Source: Olsenella sp. An290
GTDB lineage: Bacteria > Actinomycetota > Coriobacteriia > Coriobacteriales > Atopobiaceae
Assembly (NCBI RefSeq): GCF_002159535.1
Contig: NZ_NFIU01000018.1
Coordinates: 1-37,772 of the forward strand
Direction of reading: 5' to 3'
Length of the DNA stretch: 37,772 nt
This document shows positions 200-13,153 of the stretch, one piece after another. The notes beneath the pieces were generated by a model that did no database searches, was not told where the DNA came from, and saw only the letters and a list, made by a program, of their open reading frames with translations. The position numbers and the translations under genes are program-made. Position 1 is the first letter of the stretch; every line of letters begins with the position of its first letter.

Positions 200-1465
200 A
201 TGAGGCTCGCGCCGCATGCCGAGGCATTTTGCCTCGGGTCCGTGCCCATGGTGGGGAACCGTGTCACGGGAGGGCTCATTGGCCTCACGCCCGAGGGGCG
301 TGCCCTCTGCGACGAGCTCTCCACGCGCGACGTTGCCCCGAGCGAAGTTCCCGAGTCCTGCCGAGAGCTCGCCGAGCACCTGGCGCGTGGCGGCTATCTC
401 GAGGACGGCGAGAAGGACCTCGACGGAAGCGTGCCGCAGGTCATGTCGGCCTACCTCCACGTCACCCAGCGCTGCAACCTCAGCTGCCGCTTCTGCTACT
501 CCGAGGACGCGGGCAGAAACGCCCTTCCCGACCCCAGCCTCCCGGAGCTGGCGCGTGCCCTCGACCTGCTGGGAGGGCTCGGTGCGCAGCGCATCGTCAT
601 CTCCGGCGGCGAGCCGTTCCTGCGCGACGACCTTGCGCGCCTCGCCGAGCGGGCATGCGAGGCAGGAATCGGCGAGGTCATCGTCCTCACCAACGGGCTG
701 CTCGTCACGGACGAGGCAGTGGCGGCACTTGCAGGGCTCGTGAGCTGCATCGCCGTTGCCTTTGACGGCCCAGACGAGCGCTCGGTCCCCCACCTGCGCG
801 GAGAGCGGCGCGCAGCACGGCTCGTCGAGGCCGTCCGCGCCGTTCGCGACGCCGGGATAGAGGCTCGCGTCCTGCCCACCCTTCACGGCAGAAACCTCGA
901 GGACCAGGACGCCTACCGCGAGCTCGCGCGCGAGCTCGGGGCATCGCTCGGGTTCAGCCTGCTCACCGCGCCCATCGCGGAGCTCGGCGACTACGCGATC
1001 GGGGAGGACGACCTCGCAGAGCTCGGGCGCTCGGTCGCCGACGGAAAGGGCGGGTGCGGGGACGACCTGCTCGGGCCGGGCGTCGCGCTCGCCGCGCGGG
1101 CTACGTGCGGTGCGGGCGTCAGGACCCTCAGCGTGGCCGCAGACGGGACCGTCTACCCTTGTCACATGCTCCACGACCCCGCGCTCACCCTCGGCAACGC
1201 CTTCACGGACCCTGCCGAGAAGATCATGGGCGGGGCAGTGGCACGGCGCTTCCGGTCCCTTGACGCGCGGATGTTCGATGGGTGCGGCTCGTGCGACAAG
1301 CGCGTCCTCTGCGGCGGCGGGTGTCGCGCGCGGGCGTACCTGAGCGGCCTCGGACTCGAGGGCCGCGACCCCTACTGCGAGCTCTCGCGCTCTTACTATG
1401 CGCGGCTCGGCGACCTACTGGAACAGCGGTTCATGCCGAAGGGAGGTGGACAAGATGCTGTTTGA
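200..1465 (+). CDS. Radical SAM/SPASM peptide maturase with RRE-like N-terminus
   Basis: This 421-residue protein has the radical SAM cluster motif CX3CX2C at Cys92, Cys96 and Cys99, followed by GGEP at 136-139 for SAM binding. The C-terminal third has a full SPASM cysteine set (Cys303, 321, 362, 365, 371, 375, 393) that would hold auxiliary Fe-S clusters. Family knowledge: SPASM enzymes commonly install thioether or carbon-carbon crosslinks in ribosomal peptides, or mature enzymes. Residues about 18-70 (from VGNRVTGGLIGLTPEG to ELAEHLARGGYLE) resemble the PqqD/RRE fold that grips leader peptides; this assignment is by eye. The start has a purine-rich ribosome site (AAAGGGGG). The 3' end overlaps a 22-codon ORF with its own strong ribosome site, which makes a RiPP-type function likely. 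Substrate and product are unknown. Confidence 0.85.
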   Translation: MRLAPHAEAFCLGSVPMVGNRVTGGLIGLTPEGRALCDELSTRDVAPSEVPESCRELAEHLARGGYLEDGEKDLDGSVPQVMSAYLHVTQRCNLSCRFCYSEDAGRNALPDPSLPELARALDLLGGLGAQRIVISGGEPFLRDDLARLAERACEAGIGEVIVLTNGLLVTDEAVAALAGLVSCIAVAFDGPDERSVPHLRGERRAARLVEAVRAVRDAGIEARVLPTLHGRNLEDQDAYRELARELGASLGFSLLTAPIAELGDYAIGEDDLAELGRSVADGKGGCGDDLLGPGVALAARATCGAGVRTLSVAADGTVYPCHMLHDPALTLGNAFTDPAEKIMGGAVARRFRSLDARMFDGCGSCDKRVLCGGGCRARAYLSGLGLEGRDPYCELSRSYYARLGDLLEQRFMPKGGGQDAV

Positions 1466-1523
1466 GATCGAGGGCAGAGGCCTGATCTGCATCGTTATTG
1501 GCGATTTCTACATTGGAGTCTAG
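1455..1523 (+). CDS. Candidate 22-residue RiPP precursor
   Basis: A short ORF starts with ATG at 1455, inside the last codons of the maturase gene and in another frame. It is preceded by GGGAGGTGG (1441-1449), one of the best Shine-Dalgarno matches in the window, 8 bases from the ATG. The peptide begins MLFEIEGRGLIC and ends GDFYIGV. It has an acidic/charged first half and a hydrophobic second half with one Cys (residue 12) and aromatic residues F18 and Y19. It ends at 1523, overlapping the GGAG site of the next gene. Known rSAM precursors such as PqqA are about this short. The position directly after a SPASM enzyme and the dedicated ribosome site are what is seen; that the peptide is the enzyme's substrate is inference. 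Alternatively it is only a translational coupler for the next gene. Confidence 0.55.
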   Translation: MLFEIEGRGLICIVIGDFYIGV

Positions 1524-3535: not shown

Positions 3536-4096
3536 TTATAGGGCGGCGGGCTCCTCCACACACCCCCTCCCCGCGACGGGCCCCGTCATGACGAGAAGGC
3601 ATCCGCAAACCCCGACCGCATCACCGTAGGGAACCACCACGCGGTCGACCTCACGCCCTCGGTAGGTGGCCGGATTCGTGGAGCCGAGGTCGGCGACCTC
3701 CATGCCCTCCGGAACGGGCGTCAGCCTGAGGTGACGCCTCGACACCGCAGGCGAGTGCAGCACCACGTCGTTCGCGGGGTCTCTTCCCAGGGTCGCACCC
3801 TCCTCCCCCACGGGAACCCAGACGTCGACGGACGCCGTCCGCACGAACACGCCCGTCCTCTCGGGCGGGGCCGGCACGGGAGCTGCGGAACGGGAGAGGT
3901 CGACAGTGTCCCCCTGTCCCCCGCCCGAGAGGCCCGCGGGCGCTCCTGGCACCAGCTCCCCCGCGCCGTGCGACGGGTCCCGGGAGAAGTCGTAGAGGCA
4001 GCCGTAGCAGACCGCCATGTCATCGTAGAGCTCCGACCCGCACCGCGGGCAGAGCTTCGTCGCGTATCCCCTGTGCACGCCCGACACCTGTCTCAT
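3536..4096 (-). CDS. Zinc ribbon plus FHA domain protein, last gene of Tad operon
   Basis: The product (186 residues from the ATG at 4096) starts with a zinc ribbon, CPRCG then CYGC about 15 residues later. A Pro/Gly-rich linker follows, then an FHA domain. The domain shows ATLGRDPANDVVL, SPAVSRRHLRL and DLGSTNPATYRG, the usual phosphothreonine-binding pattern (GR, SRxH, GSxN-like). FHA domains recognise phosphothreonine peptides, so this protein may link the pilus to a Ser/Thr kinase; no kinase is encoded nearby. The ATG at 4096 has GGGAG 5 bases upstream; an ATG at 4108 is a credible alternative. It lies 16 bases downstream of the DUF192 gene. There is no membrane segment, so it is probably cytosolic. 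Confidence 0.8.
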   Translation of the reverse strand: MRQVSGVHRGYATKLCPRCGSELYDDMAVCYGCLYDFSRDPSHGAGELVPGAPAGLSGGGQGDTVDLSRSAAPVPAPPERTGVFVRTASVDVWVPVGEEGATLGRDPANDVVLHSPAVSRRHLRLTPVPEGMEVADLGSTNPATYRGREVDRVVVPYGDAVGVCGCLLVMTGPVAGRGCVEEPAAL

Positions 4097-4112
4097 GGAA
4101 GCTCCCATCTCC

Positions 4113-4469
4113 CTACCCCGCCATGCCAACGCTGACGGAGACGACCCACAGCTGCTCGCCCTCCTCGAGCCACGCCCCCTTGCGGGCGGGACGCTCGATC
4201 GTGCACCACGCCTCGGGGTGCGAGCGAAACTCCCCGGGCGACACGCCCCGAAACACCGCGAGCACCACCCCGACCTCGCTCAAAAACGCCACGTCGAGGG
4301 GGTAGCGCATCCCAAAGGTGTGGATGGAGCCACACCGCGTGATGAGCACCGCACGAGCATCCTCCCCCGAGCCGAGAAGCCCCCGAAGGCGCTCCCGCCA
4401 AGAGGAGAGCACCCGGACCTCGATGGGGTCTCGGGACCAGGCGTCCGACGCGAGCCTCGCAAGGTTCAC
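4113..4469 (-). CDS. DUF192 family protein in Tad operon
   Basis: A 118-residue protein whose central part matches DUF192: RCGSIHTFGMRYPLDVAFL, then FRGVSPGEF and a late ACHxxEL-like hydrophobic patch around AWLEEGEQLWV. DUF192 proteins are small beta-barrel-like domains of unknown function, often secreted; this one has no visible signal peptide. The GTG at 4469 directly abuts the TGA of the preceding TadE-like gene (4470-4472), so the gene is embedded in the pilus operon and translationally coupled. The role is unknown; the location suggests a pilus-associated or processing function. Confidence 0.8.
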   Translation of the reverse strand: MNLARLASDAWSRDPIEVRVLSSWRERLRGLLGSGEDARAVLITRCGSIHTFGMRYPLDVAFLSEVGVVLAVFRGVSPGEFRSHPEAWCTIERPARKGAWLEEGEQLWVVSVSVGMAG

Positions 4470-7461: not shown

Positions 7462-7776
7462 TCAGAATCCCGAGACGTCCTGGAGGAAGGCCACGACGCC
7501 CGCCCCCGTCCCGTGGGAGGCCGCGCCCGTCGCGAGCGCGACGATCCCGCCCCCTCGCGCGGCGTCCCAGATGAGCGCGAGCGCAAGGACCATCGCGACG
7601 AAGGCCGAGAGCACCATCAGGTACTCGACGGTGGACTGTCCCCCTGCGCCGAGGGCCCGAGCGCGCGAGCGACGTCGCCGGCGTCCATGCGCCAGACGCC
7701 GACCACGCTTCCCGAGCCGTCTGCCCGCTCGCTGACCACGCAGATCTCCACCCAACCGCTTCCCTGCAGCACGCAT
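7462..7776 (-). CDS. Second Flp-like prepilin, start uncertain
   Basis: The C-terminal 60 residues read as a clear prepilin: Gly, then QSTVEYLMVLSAFVAMVL, matching the Flp motif G/QxxxEY, and a short tail ending LQDVSGF. The problem is the start. No ATG, GTG or TTG lies near the processing site. The first start with a ribosome site (GGAAGGA) is the ATG at 7776, which gives a 45-residue, strongly Arg-rich leader overlapping the preceding gene out of frame by 160 bases. A CTG at 7695 is another possibility, as is translation by frameshift from the upstream gene. The prepilin part is secure; the true N-terminus is not. Confidence 0.65.
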   Translation of the reverse strand: MRAAGKRLGGDLRGQRAGRRLGKRGRRLAHGRRRRRSRARALGAGGQSTVEYLMVLSAFVAMVLALALIWDAARGGGIVALATGAASHGTGAGVVAFLQDVSGF

Positions 7777-8105
7777 CCCCACGTCCTTCCCGAAAGGTCG
7801 AGATACCCCGCCTGGGCGACGACGCAGTCCCCTGCCGACTCGTAGCCCTCGAGCACCCGGGCAGCCTCCCCGACGACCCCCAGCTCGCTCTCGTAGGAGA
7901 ACGCCTCGGCCGCGCCGACGAGCTCGCCAAGACGGCCTCCCCCGATCGCACCGTCCCCCTCCTGCCCCGCAGGCGGCTCCTCGTCCGGACCGCCCCCGTC
8001 AGGCTCCGGGCCCCAGGGACCCGCCGCCAGGGCGAGCAGGACGGCGACGGCAAGACCCGCGACGAGCCTCAGAGCGAGTTGATGCCGCTTGCTATCGCGT
8101 CCCAC
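7617..8105 (-). CDS. Small secreted or membrane-anchored protein of Tad operon
   Basis: A 162-residue protein of unrecognised family. It has a basic start, one hydrophobic segment (LALRLVAGLAVAVLLALAAG, about residues 9-28), a Pro/Gly/Glu-rich linker, and a domain that looks globular with three Cys (in DCVVAQ, WGCVLQ and EICVV) and alternating beta-like segments. The only plausible start is the GTG at 8105, inside the flp gene (37-base overlap), with AAGGTGG upstream. Its 3' third overlaps the prepilin frame 7462-7776 in another frame. Position suggests a pilus-specific extracytoplasmic factor; no function can be named. Confidence 0.65.
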   Translation of the reverse strand: MGRDSKRHQLALRLVAGLAVAVLLALAAGPWGPEPDGGGPDEEPPAGQEGDGAIGGGRLGELVGAAEAFSYESELGVVGEAARVLEGYESAGDCVVAQAGYLDLSGRTWGCVLQGSGWVEICVVSERADGSGSVVGVWRMDAGDVARALGPSAQGDSPPSST

Positions 8106-8266
8106 AGCTCCGCCACCTTGTCCCTGAACGCCAGGATCGCAACGATCGCGATCACCACGAGGACCCCCACGAGGATCGCGTACTCCGTCGTGCCCTGCCC
8201 CGAACGGTCGCGCGCCACGCGCGCGACGCCCGTCAGGGCCCTTCTCGCCAGGCTTTCCTCTGTCAT
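8069..8266 (-). CDS. flp: Flp pilin (major pilus subunit)
   Basis: This 65-residue prepilin has a basic leader of about 23 residues ending in Gly, then QGTTEYAILVGVLVVIAIVA, which fits the Flp motif G/XXXXEY exactly (Glu +5, Tyr +6). A short tail ending AIASGINSL follows. After cleavage by a TadV-type peptidase (not encoded in this window) it would polymerise into the pilus fibre. The ATG at 8266 has GGAG about 7 bases upstream. The gene follows tadC by 28 bases. Confidence 0.92.
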   Translation of the reverse strand: MTEESLARRALTGVARVARDRSGQGTTEYAILVGVLVVIAIVAILAFRDKVAELWDAIASGINSL

Positions 8267-8294
8267 CGAACTCTCCTCTCTCGTTGGGCCGGCC

Positions 8295-8930
8295 CTAGCC
8301 GGCCACCAGCACGGACCCCAGGAGCGGGCCCAGGATCGCCAGGAACATGGCGGGGACGATGAGGGTCCCCAGCGGCACGAGCATCTTCACGGGCACGCGC
8401 TCGATCTCCTCCTCCACCTGGGCGCGCTGCTCCTCCCGAATGGCATGCGCCTGGCGCTCGAGCGCCTCGGCAAGCGGCGTCCCAAACGCGAGCGACTCGG
8501 CCACGACCGAGGCAAACCGCCGTATCGCTGCGACGTCGAGCTCGTCGGCAAGCCGGGCGAGCGCCTCCTCACGGCATGCCGTCCCGATGCGCCAGCTGAG
8601 CATCGCCCTCGAGAACGCCCTCGCAAGCTCGCCCTCGGAGCGCTCGCAGTAGAGCTCGAGGGCGGAGTCAAAGGAGAGCCCCGCCGAAAGGCCAAGCGTG
8701 ACCACGTCGAGAAGAACGGGCAGCTCGGCAAGGCAGTCCCTCCGCGCGCCCGCCCGCGACTCGGCCGCTCGGAGCGACGCGACCGGGGGGAGGGCGCAGA
8801 CGGCGCCCCAAAGGCGCGCGGGCGCGCGGGCCCCGCCCGCGCGAGGGAGCGGAGCGCCGAGCGCGAGGAGGGACGACATCCCCGCAAGAGCCCCTGCGAG
8901 GAGGGCGATCGCAGCCGACCCGGCGCCCAT
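8295..8930 (-). CDS. tadC: TadC inner-membrane platform protein
   Basis: A 211-residue protein of the type II secretion F (GspF) domain family. The signature LPVLLDVVTLGLSAGLSFDSAL and the C-terminal helices around VKMLVPLGTLIVPAMFLAILG are typical of TadC. The ATG at 8930 overlaps the tadB TGA (ATGA), which fixes the start, although the open frame runs much further upstream. At 211 residues it has a short N-terminal part compared with many TadC proteins. With TadB it would form the membrane platform driven by the TadA ATPase. Confidence 0.9.
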   Translation of the reverse strand: MGAGSAAIALLAGALAGMSSLLALGAPLPRAGGARAPARLWGAVCALPPVASLRAAESRAGARRDCLAELPVLLDVVTLGLSAGLSFDSALELYCERSEGELARAFSRAMLSWRIGTACREEALARLADELDVAAIRRFASVVAESLAFGTPLAEALERQAHAIREEQRAQVEEEIERVPVKMLVPLGTLIVPAMFLAILGPLLGSVLVAG

Positions 8931-9865
8931 CACGCCACCCCGCCCATGAGGCGCCGGATGAGCGCGAGGGCCAGCCCGTCGAGCAGGGCGGCCACGAGGA
9001 CGCATCCCGCGCCGGAAACCGTGGCGAGCCCCCTCTGGAAGTCGGGGGAGATGAGCGCGAGCACTCCGACCATGATGGCCGGGAGCAGGCACACGATCCG
9101 CACCGAGAGCCTCACCTGTGCGGTCTTGACGCTCAGCATGCGCTCGAACTCCCCCTGGCGCTCGGCCAGGCGCGCCGAGCGTGTGAGCAGGTCGCGAAGC
9201 GGGCTTCCCGTGCGGTGCGCGATGACGAGCGCCGTGGCAAGAAGCGCGGCGCCGGGCACGTCGAGCTCGCGGGAAAGGAGCCCGACCGCCTCCTCGGTGG
9301 GAATGCCACACCTCAGCCGCAGCGACATCCGCGCAAAGACCGCGCCGGCAGGACCGCGCTCGTGCGCGCCCACGTACTCGACGGACTGCGCGAGCGTCTG
9401 CCCTGACCCCATGGCCACCGAGAGCGTGCGGAAGATGCCCGGCATCTCGGCAAGAACCTCCCTGCGCTCGCGACGCCGGCGCGCGGCCTCCCGGGCAGGG
9501 CAGGCCCCGGCCAGCGCGAGCGCCCAGACAACGCCTGCGCCGGGCGACCGCATGAGCGCCGCGACCGCGACCGACGACAGCGCAAGCGCCCAGAGAAGGA
9601 GGACGACGCATGTGCCGGCGTCAAGACCGAGCGCACGGGCGGCTGGGGCCACGGAGAGCCCCTCGGCCAGACGCCTTAGGGAGGTGTGGCCGAGAAGGCG
9701 CCCCACGGTGGGGGTCCTCGAGAGACGTACGGCCAGGCGGAGCGCACGGCGCACGGAGCACCCGAGGAGGCGGGCGGGAGGCGCGACCGGAACCCTCGCG
9801 CCCGAGAGCGCCAGGGCGGCGACGCCCGCGGCGAGGGCGACGCCTATGACGAGCAGGACCTCCAT
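8930..9865 (-). CDS. tadB: TadB inner-membrane platform protein
   Basis: A 311-residue GspF-domain protein. It has an N-terminal membrane helix (VLLVIGVALAAGVAALALSG), central helices around CVVLLLWALALSSVAV, the cytoplasmic domain with EMPGIFRTLSVAMGSGQTLAQ, and two C-terminal helices. The pattern GSGQTLAQSVEYVG is the usual T2SF turn. The ATG at 9865 overlaps the 3' end of tadA by 22 bases, and the stop overlaps the start of tadC. Confidence 0.9.
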   Translation of the reverse strand: MEVLLVIGVALAAGVAALALSGARVPVAPPARLLGCSVRRALRLAVRLSRTPTVGRLLGHTSLRRLAEGLSVAPAARALGLDAGTCVVLLLWALALSSVAVAALMRSPGAGVVWALALAGACPAREAARRRRERREVLAEMPGIFRTLSVAMGSGQTLAQSVEYVGAHERGPAGAVFARMSLRLRCGIPTEEAVGLLSRELDVPGAALLATALVIAHRTGSPLRDLLTRSARLAERQGEFERMLSVKTAQVRLSVRIVCLLPAIMVGVLALISPDFQRGLATVSGAGCVLVAALLDGLALALIRRLMGGVA

Positions 9866-11166
9866 CGCTCCACCTCCCCTCCGTCCAGCACGCCGTCCAT
9901 GACCGCCCTCGCGACAAAGGCCGGCTCGTGCACGAGGACCCAGGAGCGGCGCCCCTGGTCAAACGAGACGCACTCGTCCAGGACCACCTCGCCCGAGGCC
10001 CCGCGCGAGACCTCCGTGAGCGAGGTCACCACACGCAACCCGTCAGAAAGCCGTCTCATCACCACGATGAGGTCTATGGCCGTGGCGACCTGCTCCTCGA
10101 TCAGCGTGGTCGGGAGGTCCATCCCAAAGCGCGCCATGAGCACGAGCCGCATCACGGCCTCCTCGGAACTTCCGGCGTGCAGGGTCGTGAGCGAGCCGTC
10201 GTGGCCGGTGCTGAGCGCGTTGAGCATGTCGACGCACTCGCCGCCCCGCACCTCGCCCACCACGATGCGGTCAGGCCTCATGCGCAGGGCGTTCTTGACG
10301 AGGTCCCTGATGGTCACCTCGCCCGACCCCTCGATAGAGGCCGAGCGGGCCTCGAGCCTCACCACGTTTGGGTGGGCGTCAAAGCGCAGCTCGGCGGCGT
10401 CCTCGATGGTCACGATTCGCTCCCTCACGGGAATCTCGCAGGAGAGGGCGTTGAGGAGCGTGGTCTTGCCCGACCCCGTACCGCCCGCCACGGCAAGCGA
10501 CCTTCTTGCCCGCACGGCCCAGGACAGAAGCCGTGCGTACCAGCCCGGAAGGGACCCGAGCTCCTCGAGCGTCCGCAGCGTGCGGATGCGGTCGGAAAAC
10601 TTCCTGATGGTGATTGCCGGCCCGTCGATGGCGATGGGGGCCGCCACCGCGTTCACGCGGTCGCCGTTGGGCAGGCGCGCGCTCACGAGGGGGCTCGCGC
10701 GGTCAAGACGGCGCCCAAGGGGCGCGAGGATGCGGTCCATCACGATCATGATCTGCTCGGGAGAGTCAAAGACGGTGTCGGCGGGGTGGAGCTCGCCGGC
10801 GCGCTCGTAGAAGAGCGCGGAGCACCCGTTGATCATCACCTCGGTGATCTCGTCGTCCTCGAGCAGCGGCTGAATGGGACCGAGGCCGCAGACCTCGTCG
10901 AGGACCTGTCGCACGAGCAGGGAGCGCTCGTCGGGAAAGAGCCCCTCGAAGCCCTGCGTGTTGAGAATGGACTCGAGCGAGACGCCGAGCTCGGAGCGTG
11001 CCCGCTCCGCCGTCTCGGCGGAGAGCATCTCCGCAATGACCGAGAGCCCAAGGCGCTCGACGAGCGCCGCCTTGAGGCGCTCCCGGGCCTCCCTGAGACG
11101 AGCCCCGCCCTCGGGCGGACGGGAGGCGTCGGACCGAGCCTCGCGGACGAGCTCGAGCACGGACAT
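9844..11166 (-). CDS. tadA: TadA/CpaF secretion ATPase
   Basis: This 440-residue hexameric ATPase powers Flp pilus assembly. It contains an N-terminal domain with GLGPIQPLLEDDEITEVMIN, the Walker A motif GGTGSGKTT (228-236), the Asp box around IEDAAEL, the Walker B region RPDRIVVGEVRG and the His box TGHDGSLTTLHA. All catalytic motifs look intact. It begins with ATG at 11166, 2 bases after the cpaE stop. Confidence 0.95.
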   Translation of the reverse strand: MSVLELVREARSDASRPPEGGARLREARERLKAALVERLGLSVIAEMLSAETAERARSELGVSLESILNTQGFEGLFPDERSLLVRQVLDEVCGLGPIQPLLEDDEITEVMINGCSALFYERAGELHPADTVFDSPEQIMIVMDRILAPLGRRLDRASPLVSARLPNGDRVNAVAAPIAIDGPAITIRKFSDRIRTLRTLEELGSLPGWYARLLSWAVRARRSLAVAGGTGSGKTTLLNALSCEIPVRERIVTIEDAAELRFDAHPNVVRLEARSASIEGSGEVTIRDLVKNALRMRPDRIVVGEVRGGECVDMLNALSTGHDGSLTTLHAGSSEEAVMRLVLMARFGMDLPTTLIEEQVATAIDLIVVMRRLSDGLRVVTSLTEVSRGASGEVVLDECVSFDQGRRSWVLVHEPAFVARAVMDGVLDGGEVERWRSCSS

Positions 11167-11168
11167 GG

Positions 11169-12449
11169 CTACCTCGCCTCCCTCAGCAGTCCGAGAAGGC
11201 CCGTCCCGCGACGGCGCGCAGGGCCCTCCGCGGCCCGACGGGCCTCCTCGCAGTCCGGCAGGGAGCCGAGCTCGGCGAGCACCTGCGCAATCATGGTCGC
11301 CACGGAATCCGAGAGCGCCGAGGGCTCCTCGGCAAGCTCGACGGCCCTGCCCGCCCCGAGCAGCTCCTCCGCCTCCGCCCCTCCCTCGAAGATCCGGAAG
11401 ACCCGCGCCGCCTCAAGGCCCACCTCGGCCCTGCCGAGGGAGAGGTCGGCACGCTCGCGCGGGTTCGCCCGGTTCTCGACCCGGGCGATGCGGGTCCGAG
11501 CGACCCCAAGCCGCACGGCAAGCCCGCTCGTCCGGGCAAGGGAGGCGAGAGAGCCGGGACGACCGTCCGAGACGATGACGAGCCGGTCGGAGGCCTGGGC
11601 GGCCTGCGCGACGGCATCGGTGAAGGTCGGGGACGTGTCCACGATGACGAGGTCCGCCCCATGCGCGAGCTCGGAGATGACCCTCCCCGCGAGCGGAGCC
11701 ACGAGCTCGGCCTCCTCGGGCCGCTCGCAGGGCCCGAAAACGCTGAGCCCCGGGGCGGCGTCGGCCCCGATGCGGGCAAGCGCGCCGGCAACCTCCCCCT
11801 CGTCCGCCAGACGGGCGAGGTCGGAGCCCCCGGGAAGGGCAAAGCAGCTGTAGAGGTTGCCGCACGAGAGGTCAAGGTCGAGCGCGCGGACCCGCATGCC
11901 CCAGCGCGCGGCGTGCGCCGCCGCGAGCGCGGCGATGAGGGTCTTGCCCACCCCTCCCCTTCCCGAGCAAAGGGTCACCACCGCGCCCCGGCCGTCCGGG
12001 TCGGGAGCGCCGCCGGCAAGCGCGAGGGGCGCGGGCAAGGGGGCCTGCGGACCTGCGGGGGCAAGGCGCCCCTGGGCGGCAGGCCCCGCACCCGACGGTT
12101 CCGCCCCGCGCTCCGGAGCCCCCTCGTGCTCGGAGAGCTCGATCACGTAGTCGATCCCGGCCCGCGCGGCGCGAGACCGGAGCGAACCCGTGACGTCCCT
12201 CCTCACCAGCGCGACGGAGCGCGCGTTGCCGTCCTGCGCTATGGCGGCCGCGAGGTTCACGTCGGAGACCCCGCTTGCAAGGGGCCCCACCGCAGCCGCC
12301 ATGCCATTGGGGACCGCCTCGAGAAGGGCGCGGCGCAACGCGTCCGCGGTCCCGACAAACTCCACGCTGGCGGCCGGGTCGCACGACCTCAGCGCCCGGG
12401 CCAGGGCGACACGGTCCTTCTCGCCACAGAGGGCCATCCACTCGCTCAC
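11169..12449 (-). CDS. cpaE: CpaE/TadZ-type ParA-like ATPase
   Basis: A 426-residue protein with an atypical receiver-like N-terminus (about 1-105, ending YVIELSEH), a Pro/Ala-rich linker, and a MinD/ParA ATPase domain. The deviant Walker A is CSGRGGVGKT (161-170), the switch I-like Asp is in LDLDLSCGN, and Walker B is DLVIVDTSP. TadZ proteins place the pilus machinery at a cell pole or focus. Its ATG overlaps the end of the cpaB gene by 4 bases. The C-terminus is extended and basic (PARRRGTGLLGLLREAR). Confidence 0.88.
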   Translation of the reverse strand: MSEWMALCGEKDRVALARALRSCDPAASVEFVGTADALRRALLEAVPNGMAAAVGPLASGVSDVNLAAAIAQDGNARSVALVRRDVTGSLRSRAARAGIDYVIELSEHEGAPERGAEPSGAGPAAQGRLAPAGPQAPLPAPLALAGGAPDPDGRGAVVTLCSGRGGVGKTLIAALAAAHAARWGMRVRALDLDLSCGNLYSCFALPGGSDLARLADEGEVAGALARIGADAAPGLSVFGPCERPEEAELVAPLAGRVISELAHGADLVIVDTSPTFTDAVAQAAQASDRLVIVSDGRPGSLASLARTSGLAVRLGVARTRIARVENRANPRERADLSLGRAEVGLEAARVFRIFEGGAEAEELLGAGRAVELAEEPSALSDSVATMIAQVLAELGSLPDCEEARRAAEGPARRRGTGLLGLLREAR

Positions 12450-13153
12450 TGCCCCACCTCCCCCGCCTCGTCCGCGGGCACCTCGGAGGGGGCCTCCGGA
12501 TCGCTGGCGCCAAGGTCGGGGGCGTCGTCCGCGGGCAGCGCCAGGCGCAGGCTCCCCTCGGAGGACGCGGCGAGCACGCCGGCCACGCTCTCCGGGAGCG
12601 CGGCCAGAGAGACGCTCCCCCGACCTCCGAGCGCACGGCCGTCCGACGACGGCGCGCGCAGCACCACGAGCCCCGGCGCCAGGAGCGAGACGCCGTCATC
12701 CCCCACCTCGTAGGCCGCAAGCGTCATCCCCGGCGTAACCGACTCGGGAAGCCCCAGGTCGTCCGTCACGGGAAGTGAGAGGGCGACATGCCCGTCCGGA
12801 ACCTCGAGGGCATCGGAGCTGTCGCGGAAGTTGAGGGCCGTGAGCGGGGCTCCCGGGGCGGCCGGAACCGTCACCTCGGTCCCCATGACCTCGTCAAGCG
12901 ACGTCACCGCACCCTCGGGAGCAAGGTCGGAGAGCCAGTCGCGCTCGGTCGCGTTCCTCCCGCTCACCACCTCGCCCGCCTCGATGCCCTCGGGCGCCAC
13001 GACGAGGCTCACCACCTCGCCGCCATAGCGCTCGAGCGCCTCGGTCCTCACCCGGTCCGCCTCCTCGCGGACCTGACGTCCGTACAGCAGGCAGAGCGCC
13101 GCGGCGAGCAGCGCGCACGAGCCTGAGATGACGAACCTGAGGCGACGGGTCAT
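12446..13153 (-). CDS. cpaB: CpaB/RcpC-like SAF domain pilus protein
   Basis: This 235-residue protein has a single N-terminal membrane helix (about 6-24) and a SAF domain (about 49-112), including VAPEGIEAGEVVSG and the later GAPLTALNF. The C-terminal domain has LPVTDD and GMTLAAYEV, as in RcpC/CpaB. In didermal bacteria CpaB works with the secretin; here no secretin gene is present, as expected for a single-membrane cell. The ATG at 13153 has AAAGGGG upstream. It is the first gene of the pilus operon, after a 283-base gap. Confidence 0.8.
   Translation of the reverse strand: MTRRLRFVISGSCALLAAALCLLYGRQVREEADRVRTEALERYGGEVVSLVVAPEGIEAGEVVSGRNATERDWLSDLAPEGAVTSLDEVMGTEVTVPAAPGAPLTALNFRDSSDALEVPDGHVALSLPVTDDLGLPESVTPGMTLAAYEVGDDGVSLLAPGLVVLRAPSSDGRALGGRGSVSLAALPESVAGVLAASSEGSLRLALPADDAPDLGASDPEAPSEVPADEAGEVGQ

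Follow-up and report, generated by a model that had tools for sequence, protein, structure and literature searches.

A conserved 22-codon gene beside a radical SAM/SPASM maturase as a probable peptide precursor gene in a small gene cassette of Coriobacteriia

Near the 5′ end of the window, by which we mean the whole 37,772-base stretch of DNA that was analysed, lies a gene for a radical SAM/SPASM peptide maturase of 421 residues (200–1465, + strand), with only 199 nt before it; the first base of the window is also that of its contig. The protein matches the Pfam models Radical_SAM (84.7 bits, cut-off 29.5, residues 88–240) and SPASM (37.1 bits, cut-off 21.5, residues 303–366), which at E ≤ 1 were found in 27 and 26 of 27 aligned maturases, respectively. 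Radical SAM/SPASM enzymes are recognized by a CxxxCxxC radical SAM motif and a set of seven SPASM cysteines, and the maturase possesses both, with C92, C96 and C99 as well as C303, C321, C362, C365, C371, C375 and C393 invariant in the alignment. The AF2 model (pLDDT 90.2) has its best PDB match in CteB (5wgg/5why, Foldseek E 2.5e-17), with which it aligns from model residue 6 at Z 27.3 (rmsd 7.0, 370 aligned residues) and Z 27.0 (rmsd 6.7, 379 aligned residues); ChlB, anSME, SkfB, SuiB and PqqE follow, and TigE, which we take to be a cyclopropyl synthase, ranks lower (Z 21.6, rmsd 4.6, 369 aligned residues over model residues 1–421), as does the epimerase EpeE (Z 17.5, rmsd 4.0, 250 aligned residues). 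The best NCBIfam match is the StsB family (NF045574) with 105.4 bits at a cut-off of 625, and the PqqE and mycofactocin maturase models score 84.4 and 83.1 bits at equivalog cut-offs of 381.35 and 265; among the matches listed, which are the best 25 of 82 families, no equivalog cut-off was reached. Residues 1–65 (200–394) tentatively look like an RRE, since the model places strands at 7–12, 15–20 and 26–28 ahead of helices at 31–42 and 52–63, and the CteB and TigE alignments begin at model residues 6 and 1, although these are range ends only, few structural matches cover the N-terminal part, and Pfam PqqD had no match in any of the 27 maturases.

The last codons of the maturase gene contain a Shine-Dalgarno sequence, GGGAGGTGG (1441–1449, + strand), and 5 nt (acaag) separate it from the ATG of a 22-codon ORF (1455–1523, + strand) that encodes the peptide MLFEIEGRGLICIVIGDFYIGV. 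The first 11 nt of this ORF are shared with the maturase gene, the codon of its only Cys lies at 1488–1490, the last sense codon is GTC (1518–1520), and the final base of the stop codon TAG (1521–1523) is also the first base of a GGAG (1523–1526) that is followed after 7 nt by the ATG of the next gene at 1534. Direct reading thus confirms the initial annotation in its description of the ORF, the spacing, the single Cys and the stop codon that merges into GGAG. When the window was searched on both strands for M-[LIVM]-F, then C-x2-hydrophobic, then G, within 15–70 residues, the only match was the one at 1455; in 82 non-redundant loci, it additionally yielded six matches away from the peptide sites that look like chance (L004, L006, L012, L076, L084, L109). 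The peptide matched 0 families in NCBIfam and 0 in Pfam, and NCBIfam gave no match for the seven that were scanned of the 82 other peptides. In two genomes of the same genus, the peptide and its ribosome-binding site are identical to those of the Olsenella sp. SW781 and Thermophilibacter provencensis loci, which suggests that the window stems from a member of this group within the Atopobiaceae.

The gene that starts at 1534 (1534–2019, + strand; a longer TTG frame from 1498 in the ORF list is not its start) encodes a membrane protein of 161 residues with four long helices (3–40, 46–75, 82–104 and 131–160 in an AF2 model of pLDDT 85.1). Its match to DUF2975 (PF11188) has 20.2 bits and remains below the gathering score of 27, and we therefore call the protein DUF2975-like only; of 18 homologues, 10 reach E ≤ 0.1 with this model, the best 1.2e-8. 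The fold has no PDB match at E ≤ 0.001, so that no function was inferred from it. Downstream, a G+C hairpin with two 17-nt arms of 94% complementarity (2037–2071, + strand) and no T run 3′ of it may separate the transcript of the fourth gene from the operon. This gene (2165–2434, + strand) encodes an HTH_26 Cro/C1-type regulator of 89 residues (PF13443, 76.7 bits, cut-off 22). Neither the membrane protein nor the regulator had been named as a part of the system in the initial annotation. A scan for promoters and terminators returned consensus matches only. Further 3′ are NUDIX and FHA genes on the opposite strand, the NUDIX assignment being taken from the homologue at L006:6261–7160, and no exporter or protease gene was seen downstream in the window. 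The FHA-domain protein (3536–4129, − strand), which adjoins the NudC-like NUDIX gene, has two Cys-x2-Cys pairs near its N-terminus. Also near the cassette, at 7617–13153 (− strand), is a Tad/Flp-type pilus cluster with a T2SSE ATPase (9844–11166), T2SSF (8930–9865), a ParA/CpaE-like protein (11169–12449), a SAF/CpaB-like protein just under the cut-off (12446–13153) and a 65-residue Flp-pilin-like ORF without Pfam match (8069–8266).

Relatives of the maturase were collected from named genomes (25 loci), from the family (22 of 140 genomes at E ≤ 1e-60) and from a sample of the class at E ≤ 1e-70, in which 67 of 396 Coriobacteriia genomes carry it, or 59 of 314 when only genomes with at least 90% completeness and at most 5% contamination are counted; Olsenella, Thermophilibacter, Collinsella and Adlercreutzia are among the named carriers. 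The 116 collected loci include repeats, and after removal of 34 that were identical over maturase residues 51–250, 82 non-redundant loci remained, with L003/L014, L015/L045 and L078/L080 as near-copies still among them. Family names of some genomes (f1 Atopobiaceae, f2 Eggerthellaceae, f3 Coriobacteriaceae) were inferred from named neighbours in the tree, and L018 is counted within the Coriobacteriia by its tree placement. A peptide counterpart was found at 77 of the 82 loci, in Coriobacteriia and Bacillota, starting with MLF at 76 of them and with MQF, from a GTG codon, at one (L106). As to the five misses, the contig of L010 ends 83 nt past the maturase, that of L098 starts inside the expected upstream region, L046 has a copy with a one-base frameshift, and at L018 and L082 neither a peptide nor a membrane protein was found, with the maturase and the HTH gene kept. 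The joint absence in these last two loci would fit a toxin–immunity or ligand–receptor pair, or one deletion.

Some loci have two to four tandem peptide copies (L017, L022, L024, L104), and 83 peptides were scored in total, the third copy in L022 not being one of them; extra MVF, MFF or MLF frames in L015, L045, L065, L072, L079 and L085 were dropped by pattern or by eye. The four tandem MLF peptides of L017, a Lachnospiraceae locus, differ in sequence and extend up to 520 nt past the maturase, and ABC transporter genes follow them. Diversity in the peptide frame amounts to pS/pN values of 0.633/0.363 in 16 Atopobiaceae 22-mers, window included, and of 0.720/0.319 and 0.728/0.279 in 10 and 8 Eggerthellaceae-type peptides, giving pN/pS ratios of 0.57, 0.44 and 0.38 that are rough because pS is near saturation. 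Stops interrupt frame +2 in 14 of 16, 10 of 10 and 8 of 8 sequences of these sets, and frame +1 in only 7 of 16, 5 of 10 and 4 of 8, so that the latter is open in about half of the sequences. Disruption or missing conservation of the frame in homologues had been named beforehand as the observation that would speak against a precursor gene, and what we found was a frame kept at nearly all loci with a substitution pattern that indicates purifying selection. At the level of sequence comparison, this establishes the ORF as a conserved protein-coding gene that is tied to this maturase family.

The peptides are mostly 21–29 and at most 38 residues long, with 21 as the minimum and three longer exceptions (L114, L115, L116). 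These are variants of 51–64 residues, whose long C-terminal extensions past both C-x3-G motifs are possibly follower peptides or fused frames. The MLF start is present in 82 of the 83 peptides, and two types can be distinguished. In the double-motif type (55 peptides), C-x3-G occurs twice without exception, and the second Gly may be preceded by I, V, Y, P, L, F, W, A, Q, T or H, with Cys and Gly constant. The 28 peptides of the other type all conform to C-x2-[IVF]-x5-G-x-end, with Ile, Val or Phe at C+3 (Ile or Val in 27), Ile or Val at C+8, Gly at C+9 and the chain end at C+10; we call them single-motif, meaning one C-x-x-Phi motif, as three of them (L005, L015, L045) carry further Cys upstream. 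The window peptide is of this type, and its Gly21, nine residues past Cys12, is encoded at 1515–1517. In the 16 Atopobiaceae 22-mers M1, L2, F3, C12 and G21 are fixed, I15 is found in 15 and I20 in 14, and the sequence between the fixed positions is variable. The proposal that an F–Y pair and an Asp serve as crosslink sites is not borne out by this alignment, in which D17, F18 and Y19 each occur once, window included, and of the predicted conservation of a GDFYIGV-like C-terminus only [IV]-G-x holds true, the rest not being kept. In a maturase tree of 80 rows, built without L116 and without L025, whose maturase frame is broken near ambiguous bases, all 28 single-motif rows fall into one supported clade of 30 (99/99), the other two members being L010 and L046, which have no scored peptide. 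Enzyme and substrate type therefore change together.

Neighbour clustering and iterated profiles identified a four-gene cassette of SPASM maturase, peptide, DUF2975-like membrane protein and HTH_26 regulator that is present in several families of Coriobacteriia. In the 77 Coriobacteriia loci, the peptide was found at 72, the membrane protein and the HTH gene at 71 each, and all three partners at 67. The ten incomplete loci are L007, where no HTH gene was found, L018, L046, L082, L098 and L104, as well as L010, L084, L096 and L116, where little sequence is left on the contig or stretch. In the main scan, the peptide gene directly follows the maturase at 62 loci, with ATG positions that range from −30 to +139 nt relative to the maturase stop (median +4), and by a loose pattern an SD-like motif precedes all 62 of these Coriobacteriia peptides. 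Seven loci (L086, L091, L094, L095, L101, L109, L110) have the order peptide, membrane protein, regulator, maturase, and an overlap with the maturase 3′ end is therefore not required.

Transport genes, which were looked for in part of the loci, are not universally absent. In Olsenella profusa (L015), where the membrane protein and HTH genes are also present, an ABC ATPase gene ends 47 nt 5′ of the maturase. Together with an ORF of 669 residues that no Pfam model matches above cut-off, it lies directly upstream of the maturase (L015:1290–3953), and this pair is a possible lineage-specific exporter of the product. The ABC gene of L016 is FtsE/FtsX-like, and the neighbour in L013 is an acetyltransferase. 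The Eggerthellaceae-like L104 has neighbours of the ABC type only: two peptides are followed by an ABC ATPase gene, assigned by Pfam, and by two further frames without Pfam match, of which by eye one resembles the membrane part of an ABC transporter and the other a CAAX-type protease. At four Bacilli loci, one to three peptides of the MLFATxK/MLFSTRK type come after the maturase, and behind them lie genes for an ABC ATPase, an ABC2-type membrane protein (in three of four by clustering), an Rce1-like protease (four of four by Pfam), an unassigned membrane protein and an ABC exporter; Lysinibacillus (L023) additionally has the membrane protein–HTH pair just upstream of the maturase and thus carries both gene sets.

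Two other genomic contexts were considered and rejected. PADLOC reported viperin-type radical SAM matches that lie in the core (best 66.4 bits, residues 85–196) and weak HTH matches, but a maturase with SPASM domain and peptide is unlike viperin, and assignment to a defence system was dropped. A mobile element was likewise rejected, with the maturases of the window (E ≤ 1e-30) and of L024 (E ≤ 1e-40) unmatched in 72,556 plasmid records. Viral contigs contained three distant maturase matches (22–28% identity, E 3e-15 to 9e-10).

Among the three protein partners, the membrane protein is the most divergent: the mean identities of membrane protein, maturase and HTH domain are 0.38, 0.59 and 0.93 in 17 Atopobiaceae loci, and 0.42, 0.67 and 0.76 in 18 Eggerthellaceae-type loci. 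With the maturase distance removed in partial Mantel tests, three subgroups show a correlation between peptide and membrane protein distances, with r of 0.31 (p 0.0011), 0.67 (p 0.0001) and 0.36 (p 0.022), as does a set of 64 loci (r 0.37, p 0.0001), and no correlation was seen between peptide and HTH distances (p 0.13, 0.89, 0.78, 0.49). The near-copy L014 was left out of these sets, the Atopobiaceae set lacks L007 (no HTH) and L045, the Eggerthellaceae set lacks L091 and L095, and the 64 loci are also without Bacillota, L104 and the long variants L114–L116. When 25 single-motif loci were pooled, the correlation of peptide and membrane protein was gone (r 0.04, p 0.24). The covariation is suggestive of a direct recognition between the two sequences, and it may be that two fast-evolving genes that both track time would give the same correlation.

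RiPPs are recognized by a genetically encoded precursor beside its modifying enzyme, conserved across genomes, and by an enzymatically modified product; the first of these, the gene arrangement, is found at the 77 peptide-bearing loci. We consider it probable that a radical-SAM-modified RiPP has its precursor gene in the 22-codon ORF and that the encoded peptide is the substrate of the SPASM maturase encoded 5′ of it; chemistry and activity are inferred. The initial annotation had proposed such a candidate precursor, and the conservation and the selection on the frame support the proposal. The RRE-like N-terminal domain of the maturase would bind the MLF-containing N-terminus of the peptide, and the enzyme, using SAM and auxiliary FeS clusters, would abstract a hydrogen atom in the C-x-x-Phi-G region. 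The Cys sulfur could then be linked to a nearby carbon in a thioether-type crosslink, with one ring expected in single-motif and two in double-motif peptides. A Cys-dependent link is favoured since the Cys and Gly are constant and the residue before the second Gly is variable, and a sactipeptide-type bond of the Cys sulfur to an alpha-carbon is a candidate that the conserved Cys would fit. The small hydrophobic product may partition to the membrane and meet its specific partner there, for which we propose the fast-evolving DUF2975-like protein in the role of receptor or immunity protein; expression would be controlled by the HTH protein. The peptide is perhaps a signal or a weapon.

The main rival to a thioether accepts the peptide as the substrate and assumes cyclopropane formation or a C–C linkage at the Ile/Val–Gly pairs, as in TvgB, or an epimerization. 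The nearly uniform Ile/Val at C+3 and C+8 and the alignment of TigE over the full length of the model agree with this, and, according to PMC9062424, TvgB makes cyclopropylglycine in TVGG repeats. However, in the double-motif peptides it is the residue before the second Gly that changes and not the Cys or the Gly, and the top structural match, CteB, is an enzyme that forms thioethers, with EpeE ranking lower, even though chemistry cannot be read from similarity of fold. We regard this rival as unlikely. The poly-cyclopropylglycine system TvgA/TvgB resembles ours in that a maturase of the SPASM class modifies a peptide in which Val-Gly motifs recur (PMC9062424), yet the fixed Cys found here contrasts with the TVGG repeats there.

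PqqA is a very short precursor, and PqqA/PqqE and MftA/MftC share with the present system a SPASM maturase and a very short substrate. On these grounds, and from the fixed C-terminal geometry, the lack of an exporter seen in the window and the detectable relationship to the PqqE and mycofactocin maturases, the product could be imagined to serve inside the cell as a cofactor or redox carrier and to be neither signal nor antimicrobial. However, those scores are far under the equivalog cut-offs, the sequence between the fixed peptide positions is variable, and no dehydrogenase, quinoprotein or other cofactor enzyme was seen among the annotated neighbours, which are a part of all neighbours, and a cofactor is very improbable. 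The PqqA and MftA motifs differ from the motif found here. Even less credible is an unmodified, translated leader whose sole role would be to link translation of the maturase and membrane protein genes, as might be concluded from an ORF that starts inside the one gene and ends on the Shine-Dalgarno sequence of the other (14 of the 62 peptides right after a maturase start before its stop), because coupling needs no fixed MLF, Cys and Gly, and neither the location of the peptide at the 5′ end of the cassette in seven loci, away from the maturase 3′ end, nor tandem copies and purifying selection agree with it.

Returning to the proposed modified peptide, several known systems can be compared. SCIFF peptides have six cysteines in forty-five residues, and their ranthipeptide maturases, represented by CteB, are the closest solved structures by sequence and fold; the peptides described here differ in having one or two motif Cys in chains of 21–38 residues, apart from the three longer exceptions. 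Via its best NCBIfam match, the maturase also resembles StsB–GggB, which belongs to the GGG subfamily of streptococcal RaS-RiPPs. Streptosactin, its product, has 14 residues and two sactionine rings that are small and unnested (PMC8172795, PMC13361665). In these rings, Cys is linked to position i+3 with Ser/Gly acceptors, in contrast to the peptides here, where the constant Gly stands at i+4 from Cys in the double-motif and at i+9 in the single-motif type; regulation of streptosactin by SHP/Rgg contrasts with HTH_26 and a membrane protein here. The four Bacilli loci are reminiscent of the SKF cluster (skfABCEFGH), as their maturase, peptides, ABC_tran and ABC2-type membrane proteins, Rce1/CAAX protease and ABC exporter parallel skfB, skfA, skfE/F and skfC (PMC8172795). 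The SKF-type neighbours, an ABC transporter and a CAAX protease, are present in these four loci and were not seen on the 3′ side of the window, the 5′ side being cut after the 199 nt mentioned above. By analogy, they suggest an antimicrobial or self-inhibitory product in that branch; unlike SKF, 67 of 77 Coriobacteriia loci have the DUF2975-like and HTH_26 genes beside maturase and peptide.

In the open-licence PMC literature, we found no description of this peptide family, and an earlier listing is possible in subscription surveys of radical-SAM RiPPs, which are outside this scope; searched in the open-licence literature, the Bacilli peptide strings had an unrelated plant paper as the sole match, and DUF2975 is mentioned once each in two papers. 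The cassette can be regarded as a minimal radical-SAM RiPP system, in which the precursor family, the gene arrangement and the membrane partner appear new. As the peptides that were tried match no NCBIfam or Pfam model, pipelines resting on those models would miss them. Coriobacteriia are common in the gut, and to our knowledge few of their peptide products have been described. It is possible, and we propose it tentatively, that the cassette represents a new RiPP class, a system of peptide–membrane signalling or self-inhibition of gut Coriobacteriia with an almost leaderless precursor, a single SPASM maturase, a DUF2975-like receptor or immunity partner and HTH_26, and usually with no exporter or protease seen. 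With four genes, it is small enough for testing the enzyme chemistry, the membrane partner and the regulation, and, if true, this reading would provide the first functional context for the DUF2975/HTH_26 gene pair.
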